Below are positions 29,658-36,069 of a stretch of DNA of 38,935 bases, one piece after another. The stretch's first letter is position 1. Every line of letters begins with the position of its first letter. Source of the stretch: Candidatus Sumerlaeota bacterium (lineage in GTDB: Bacteria; Sumerlaeota; Sumerlaeia; MWCT01); assembly GCA_016931135.1 (NCBI GenBank), contig JAFGFK010000354.1:1-38935 (forward strand), given 5' to 3'. The notes below the pieces were generated by a model. It was not told the origin of the DNA and did no database searches. It worked only from the letters and a program-made list of their open reading frames with translations. The translations under genes were made by a program, and so were the position numbers.

Positions 29658-29752
29658 GGGGTCAGACTCTATCTTATTGTAACGCGAAAGGCAAAATATT
29701 GGGGTCAGACTCTAACTTATTGTAACGCGAATATTGGGATCAGACTGTAGAG
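29658..29752 (+). repeat. RAYT-associated repeat cluster, left side: copies at 29658-29688 and 29701-29731 plus degenerate copy 29736-29752
   Basis: GGGGTCAGACTCTATCTTATTGTAACGCGAA and GGGGTCAGACTCTAACTTATTGTAACGCGAA, then GGGATCAGACTGTAGAG. Confidence 0.93.
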
Positions 29753-29754
29753 TA

Positions 29755-29782
29755 GAGAGGGGCTTTCGCCCTTCATTTTTTA
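29755..29782 (+). terminator. Possible terminator between the left repeat cluster and the RAYT gene
   Basis: AGGGGC-TTTC-GCCCTT stem (one G-T) followed by CATTTTTTAC. Confidence 0.5.
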
Positions 29783-29823
29783 CTTGACTTTATCTTATTC
29801 AAAACAAGATTTATCAATATATT

Positions 29824-30783
29824 ATGGCGCGAACAAAACGCATCGATCTGCCTTATATGCTCTATCATGTATTTTCTCGCGCCAATTCGGGGGACGTCGG
29901 ATTTATTGACTCACGAGACAAGGCGAAATTTCTGGAATATCTGGCAAAATATGTCGAAACTTTTGAATTTCGCGTTCATGCTTGGTGTCTGATGTCGAAC
30001 CATTTTCATCTTCTCCTGGAGAGCGTGAAACATCCCTTTCTTTCGGAATTCATGCGCCGCCTTCTCACCGCATACACGGTTTTCTTCAATCGCCGCCATG
30101 AACGACATGGGCATCTGTTCCAGGGGCGTTTCAAAAGCCTTGTTGTGGACAAGTCGGATTATCTGCTCGCCCTTTCGCGGTATATCCACCTTAATCCCGT
30201 TCTTGCAGGCATTGCAGACGATCCGGAGGCGAATCGGGACTCCAGTCTGCATTTTTATCTGTATGGCGGGGAGCCGAACTACCTCTATACTAAGGAAATT
30301 CTCTCCTTTTTTGGCGGCGACCGCCATCTTTATGGTCAATTTATCCGGGAAGGCATGAATGAGGACATCAAACCTCAGATCATCCAGCGGCAATTCATCG
30401 GGGGTGACCAGTTTGTCCAGCGTATGAATTCCCGATTGAAGCGCCTTTCACAAAATGGAACGTTCTCCCACGCCACGGCAAAAAGTGAGATCCGGGATAG
30501 AATGGCGGCGGAATCGGCGCGAGCCGAAGAAATATTGAACCATGTGGCCGATTATTTCGGCTACAGCGCGCAAGAGATAAGGCAGGGGCGAGGCATGCGA
30601 AACCATCTCTTCAGGGCAAGGGCGGTTTGCGCTGCCCTTCTTCGCAAAAAATTGCCCTGGACAGGCAGAAATATCAATGAATTCCTCTTCGTTAAAACAG
30701 GTTTTTATCGCTTTCTGAATAAAATCAAAAATGACAAAGCTGCGCAGACAGCCCTGGATTCTATCCATAAAAACCTCGAGTGA
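29824..30783 (+). CDS. REP-associated tyrosine transposase-like (RAYT, Y1_Tnp / IS200-like)
   Basis: RIDLPYMLYHVFSRANSG..., WCLMSNHFHLLLE (HUH), GHLFQGRFKSLVVDKSDYLLALSRYIHLNPVLAGI (catalytic-Tyr region). Confidence 0.92.
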   Translation: MARTKRIDLPYMLYHVFSRANSGDVGFIDSRDKAKFLEYLAKYVETFEFRVHAWCLMSNHFHLLLESVKHPFLSEFMRRLLTAYTVFFNRRHERHGHLFQGRFKSLVVDKSDYLLALSRYIHLNPVLAGIADDPEANRDSSLHFYLYGGEPNYLYTKEILSFFGGDRHLYGQFIREGMNEDIKPQIIQRQFIGGDQFVQRMNSRLKRLSQNGTFSHATAKSEIRDRMAAESARAEEILNHVADYFGYSAQEIRQGRGMRNHLFRARAVCAALLRKKLPWTGRNINEFLFVKTGFYRFLNKIKNDKAAQTALDSIHKNLE

Positions 30784-30803
30784 AGAGAATTTGTCCTCTT
30801 TAA

Positions 30804-30850
30804 GTTACAATAAGTTAGAGTCTGACCCCAATTTTTGAACCCAATTTTTG
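30804..30850 (-). repeat. RAYT-associated repeat, right side, inverted orientation, with a short degenerate echo
   Basis: GTTACAATAAGTTAGAGTCTGACCCC (30804-30829) is the exact reverse complement of the left-side core; followed by AATTTTTGAACCCAATTTTTG. Confidence 0.93.
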
Positions 30851-35882: not shown

Positions 35883-35935
35883 GGGGTCAGACTCTAACTT
35901 ATTGTAACGTAAAGAGGGAATTTTGGGGTCAATCT
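35883..35935 (+). repeat. Orphan copy of the RAYT-associated repeat plus partial copy
   Basis: GGGGTCAGACTCTAACTTATTGTAACG at 35883-35909 and GGGGTCAATCT at 35925-35935, about 5.1 kb from the transposase. Confidence 0.92.
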
Positions 35936-36069
35936 TCCAAGCGAATGTAAATTAACGCCTTCCATTGACCCTTTTCATTCCTATTACATATCGAACAATA
36001 TGATCTTTTGTGGGAAGGGACGAGTCTGGTGGCCCGTCTCCCGTTTTTTTTATCTAACAGGGATATACG

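Follow-up and report, generated by a model that had tools for sequence, protein, structure and literature searches.

The transposase gene described here adds a member to an established but little-studied class, the TIRYTs ('TIRtrons'; RAYT group 1, Y1 subclass 2.1.2), and its terminal inverted repeats (TIRs) are, with a probability that we put at roughly 70%, two-part recognition sites, in which a head shared among paralogues would be read and nicked by the Y1 domain and a paralogue-specific tail of two half-sites would be read by a pair of C-terminal helix-turn-helix (HTH) domains. The gene lies on a contig of Candidatus Sumerlaeota bacterium, of which a stretch of 38,935 nucleotides (hereafter the window) was analysed. 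The element consists of a single-copy Y1/HUH gene between TIRs, together with solo repeats dispersed elsewhere. According to the proposed mechanism, the N-terminal Y1 domain would recognise the head, formed by GGGGTCA plus three to four bases and common to other paralogues, and would probably nick at its outer border, between (A/T)T and GGGG. The tail of ~16-20 bp, made of two tandem direct half-sites, would be bound by two copies of the C-terminal HTH, probably one per protomer of a Y1 dimer, and the inverted TIRs would delimit the element for excision or copying. Tail recognition would allow several paralogues to coexist in one genome without cross-acting, and each enzyme to move its cognate solo repeats in trans. 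Tentatively, binding to the TIR may also repress the transposase gene, since TTGAC is often found just inside the upstream TIR (28 of 97 elements, vs 8 of 97 at the downstream one).

The initial annotation had reported a stand-alone Y1/HUH open reading frame at 29824-30783 (+ strand), which indeed encodes a protein of 319 aa matching Pfam Y1_Tnp (1.7e-12) and carrying the motifs NHFH (residues 59-62), FQ (99-100), YIHLNP (120-125) and SS (140-141). The N-terminal Y1/HUH domain, the putative reader and nicker of the head, covers residues 1-130 (29824-30213, +), and the C-terminal HTH, which resembles DnaA domain IV and is the putative reader of the tail half-sites, covers residues ~235-318 (30526-30777, +). 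Bac_DnaA_C is matched in all ten paralogues (best 3e-6; the window member scores 19.4, with the cut-off at 31.5), and a profile of the ten matched DnaA structures at 6e-5 over positions 225-315. An AlphaFold2 model is confident (pLDDT 94.8) and places helices at residues 260-276, 281-288, 295-303 and 305-318; among solved structures, the E. coli RAYT 4er8 matches it best, and DnaA 1l8q ranks lower. We also would like to point out two features seen by eye in the interval that separates the left TIR from the transposase gene, namely a terminator-like hairpin (GGGGC-TTTC-GCCC with a T-rich run behind it, 29757-29779), which may insulate the transposase gene against read-through, and TTGACT just inside the left TIR (29784-29789, +), tentatively a -35 box of this gene.

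The 26-mer GGGGTCAGACTCTAACTTATTGTAAC is present in four copies in the window at ≤3 mismatches, with a chance value of 0.00 in 100 dinucleotide-preserving shuffles. The outer upstream copy (29658-29683, +, one mismatch), assigned to repeat family F1, begins 3 bp past the stop codon of the preceding ORF. The left TIR (29701-29726, +) is an exact 26-mer that is composed of the head GGGGTCAGAC (29701-29710) and the tail TCTAACTTATTGTAAC, the latter holding TAAC-N6-TAAC at 10-bp spacing. It is followed by a head-only fragment, GGGATCAGACT (29736-29746, +), and the right TIR (30804-30829, -) is again exact, but inverted. These are the two and a half upstream copies and the exact inverted downstream copy that had been described before, an inventory that was correct for the copies it named and that missed both an exact solo 26-mer between two convergent ORFs (35883-35908, +) and the unit adjoining it. 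This adjoining unit (35925-35957, +), directly 3' of the F1 solo, is likewise a solo and has a different tail, that of family F10 (GGGGTCAATCTTCCAAGCGAATGTAAATTAACG), in which we found no gene. The F1 and F10-type units (35883-35957) point the same way at a distance of 42 bp, as do the two F1 units at 29658 and 29701 at 43 bp, and these pairs suggest array formation. Beyond the tail, TAAAGAGG is common to the 35883 solo and the right TIR, and GGGGTCAG, of the GGGGWSAS type, is present at both element ends. A search of the window against Rfam gave no match. The earlier observation that the repeat lacks a strong hairpin holds, as the F1 repeat folds with an MFE of 0 kcal/mol on both strands and no GTAG hairpin is seen.

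Two more copies of the 26-mer, with 1-2 mismatches, were found on other contigs of the same genome (4.66 Mb in 523 contigs, 89% complete). This dispersed repeat, which brackets the enzyme in inverted copies, is very probably the substrate of this transposase, as had been proposed. The 26-mer is made of two units, a paralogue-shared head and a paralogue-specific tail. The genome-wide count is 37 for GGGGTCAGAC (19 forward, 18 reverse) and 39 for GGGGTCAATCT, against 0 for the reversed control in either case. The genome holds ten full-length TIRYTs, nine of them 44-53% identical to the window member, as well as three TIRYT gene fragments. Each full-length gene is bracketed by inverted repeats with a GGGGTCA head and with a tail that is the same at both ends and unlike the tails of the paralogues. 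Behind this common head at least 17 types of tail occur; the 17 families were grouped by eye from their copies and head and not from spacing. Ten of them have a full-length gene and an eleventh has a gene fragment, whereas for the remaining six we found no gene. In a search for 14 of the families, only 3 of 72 copies were inside an ORF of ≥150 codons, and T directly preceded GGGG in 54 of the 72.

Families F6, F7, F10, F12, F13 and F14 have 2-8 copies each and no matching full-length transposase was found for them; their enzymes are lost or unassembled, the assembly being 89% complete. Close inverted pairs, ~155-170 bp, occur on contigs C100 and C493 and recall REPINs. On contig C260, the 3' end of a host ORF lies within a TIR that provides its last codons and stop (...INWGQSGK*), which suggests insertion into a gene, and on contig C345 a solo TIR is duplicated together with its flank, ~800 bp apart.

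The internal structure of the tail was examined in TIRs gathered from 88 elements of the own genome, of relatives and of 80 loci in other phyla, by counting self-matches of the tail at each spacing. Self-matches are most frequent at 10 bp (z about 4) in tails of the own family, at 7 bp in those of other long proteins, where either end gives z 10.3, and at a lag of 7-8 in those of short proteins (z 3-6); the few families of genomes G001 and G002 peak at 9 bp. With one representative for each of the 17 tail families of the own genome, the lag-10 self-match is 0.50 (z 6.6), a value reached in 0 of 1000 mono- or dinucleotide shuffles, and the subset of six families tested that lack a full-length gene (five orphans and the one family with a gene fragment, along with one further orphan) gives z 4.5 at this lag. 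The tails are thus tandem direct repeats with clade-specific spacing (10 bp in the own genome, 7-8 bp elsewhere), a property that appears to be new. Note also that 7 bp leaves little room for two adjacent HTH domains.

Support for a division of labour between the two protein domains comes from pairwise similarities over 85 elements, calculated for the head (bases 1-11), the tail (12-28), the N-terminal residues 1-200 and the HTH residues 256-312, and compared by partial Mantel tests, a statistic that shared ancestry can inflate. Tail similarity follows the HTH when the N-terminal region is controlled for (r=0.32, p=0.001) and does not follow the N-terminal region when the HTH is controlled for (r=-0.01), whereas head similarity follows the N-terminal region given the HTH (r=0.50, p=0.001) and not the HTH given the N-terminal region (r=0.05). 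This split was stable when relatives were thinned to <70%, <60% and <50% identity, each half-site tracks the HTH separately, and when a window is moved along the protein, the maximum falls on residues 271-310. For short proteins alone, tail and HTH are linked at 0.465; in long proteins the tail is also weakly linked to the N-terminal region (r=0.185, p=0.01). In no set is the DNA beyond the tail linked to the HTH, and among long proteins this DNA follows the N-terminal region weakly (r=0.178, p=0.004). Where the nearest relatives by HTH and by N-terminal region are not the same, the tail resembles that of the HTH neighbour in 32 cases vs 15 (p=0.002, <60% identity); at <50% identity the same test gave 14 vs 15, which is not significant. 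In the own-family elements alone (n=12) the link between tail and C-terminus does not go beyond a trend (r=0.19, p=0.10). Residue-level mutual information placed several of the top tail columns at residues 277-296; this recognition-helix signal is not relied on, because it was lost once relatives were removed. All of this support is statistical in nature, and it suggests that head similarity tracks the Y1 domain and tail similarity the DnaA-like HTH, an association that likewise appears to be new.

Co-inheritance only might produce a similar picture, if a passive tail drifted with its element and followed the fastest-evolving region of the protein without being read. The C-terminal region is indeed the most variable part of the protein, partial Mantel tests protect incompletely against the effects of phylogeny, and the residue-level signal weakened after de-duplication. 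Yet the head in the same elements shows the opposite pattern, the DNA just beyond the tail is without the HTH link that both half-sites show separately, and drift makes no tandem direct repeats with clade-specific spacing; we consider this explanation improbable. The tails might also be mainly operators, on which the C-terminal domain acts as an autorepressor at the left TIR, the solo repeats being fossils of an element that does not transpose today. The excess of TTGAC inside the upstream TIR fits such an arrangement, as does the lack of a near-identical second gene copy; however, the downstream end, where a promoter is unnecessary, retains the same tail, as do the scattered solos and the closely spaced inverted pairs, and an operator role as the main function seems unlikely to us.

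The initial annotation had interpreted the repeat as an atypical REP of a classical RAYT, which would be recognised as a single-stranded hairpin. Part of that interpretation stands, namely an HUH enzyme with an inverted, dispersed repeat; it belongs to the RAYT superfamily, its closest solved fold is that of a RAYT, inverted copies flank it and solo copies are intergenic. The REP identity is very unlikely and is replaced here by that of a TIRYT terminal inverted repeat: neither the F1 repeat nor the 85 TIRs, when compared with shuffles, contain a hairpin, there is no GTAG/GTGG guide, the enzyme has an additional DnaA-like domain, and the NCBIfam model NF047646 (REP_Tyr_transpos) scores 54.4 bits, below its cut-off of 80. 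The two-part site read by Y1 and HTH domains remains our preferred reading.

Neither an empty site nor an orthologous junction was found in relatives of the same family and order, because the matches to the neighbouring PPIase gene in these genomes are only 21-36% identical. No recent transposition was seen, and no near-identical second copy of the transposase occurs in the genome. When relatives were compared, the GGGGTCAGAC count clearly exceeded the control in the own genome. Genome G055 has 19 copies vs 1 in the control and no TIRYT match, and the eight copies inspected belong to an unrelated GC-rich repeat; this dispersed repeat, GCCACAGGAGGTGGCGAGGAAG.CCGGGGTCAGACA.GGAGG.CTGTCCCC... (loci L205-L214), with ~19 head matches in the genome, has no Rfam match. 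In G002 (90% complete, no TIRYT found), GGGGTCARWC has 53 matches vs 9 in the control; most of the 15 inspected appear to be chance matches, and a few bear tails with 9-bp direct repeats, which are perhaps orphans.

Extended to the whole class, the same logic would describe HUH enzymes with a modular address, in which Y1 reads a near-universal head and a replaceable HTH pair reads a tandem tail with clade-dependent spacing, a generalisation that we hold to be slightly better than an even bet. If true, one genome can accommodate at least ten orthogonal transposase/repeat pairs, a swap of the C-terminal domain would retarget specificity, and nature provides a ready collection of HUH enzymes with orthogonal sites. 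A bipartite TIR was not reported in the literature searched, where the repeat sequence was met only in unrelated papers, and the portions of PMC3733652 and PMC6006769 consulted do not describe the head/tail split, the tandem half-sites or the C-terminal co-variation. In the 2018 survey (PMC6006769), the role of the C-terminal domain was left open between no part in target recognition and the reading of a new target; our data favour the latter, and the head/tail split with its opposite co-variation offers a concrete, testable answer to what reads TIRYT TIRs.

Among known systems, IS200/IS605 TnpA shares the Y1/HUH catalytic fold, but has ~150 aa instead of ~319 and subterminal hairpins instead of inverted terminal repeats; membership was rejected on the length of 319 aa, on the absence of a hairpin and of near-identical copies, the best paralogue being 53% identical. 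The classical RAYT/TnpA-REP systems of E. coli and Pseudomonas resemble the present one in their HUH/Y1 core, single-copy enzyme and inverted flanking repeats and, as in REPs and REPINs, in dispersed intergenic non-autonomous copies. They differ in that here GTAG guide and hairpin are absent, an HTH domain is added and the repeat is a two-part linear site; a classical RAYT with its REP was rejected because GTAG/GTGG beside a hairpin is absent, the MFE is 0, the 85 TIRs fold no better than shuffles and the NCBIfam score is below cut-off. DnaA domain IV has a homologous HTH, and the ~10-bp half-site spacing of the own genome resembles abutting 9-bp DnaA boxes, but the window tail has no TTWTNCACA match (by eye, both ways), tails differ among paralogues, and TIRYT TIRs are not DnaA boxes according to PMC6006769. 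The TIRYT class was described by Di Nocera et al. 2013 (PMC3733652) and corresponds to subclass 2.1 of PMC6006769, onto which RAYT group 1 of Bertels et al. 2017 was mapped; its enzymes occur in 14.9% of the surveyed strains (PMC6006769), and its TIRs carry GGGGWSAS (PMC3733652, PMC6006769). The present gene is assigned to this class because of its NHFH, FQ, YIHLNP and SS motifs, its Bac_DnaA_C-like C-terminal domain and its GGGGWSAS TIRs. It also shares with TIRtrons the absence of hairpins, several distant paralogues per genome and moderately abundant solo TIRs, and no trait found here excludes membership.
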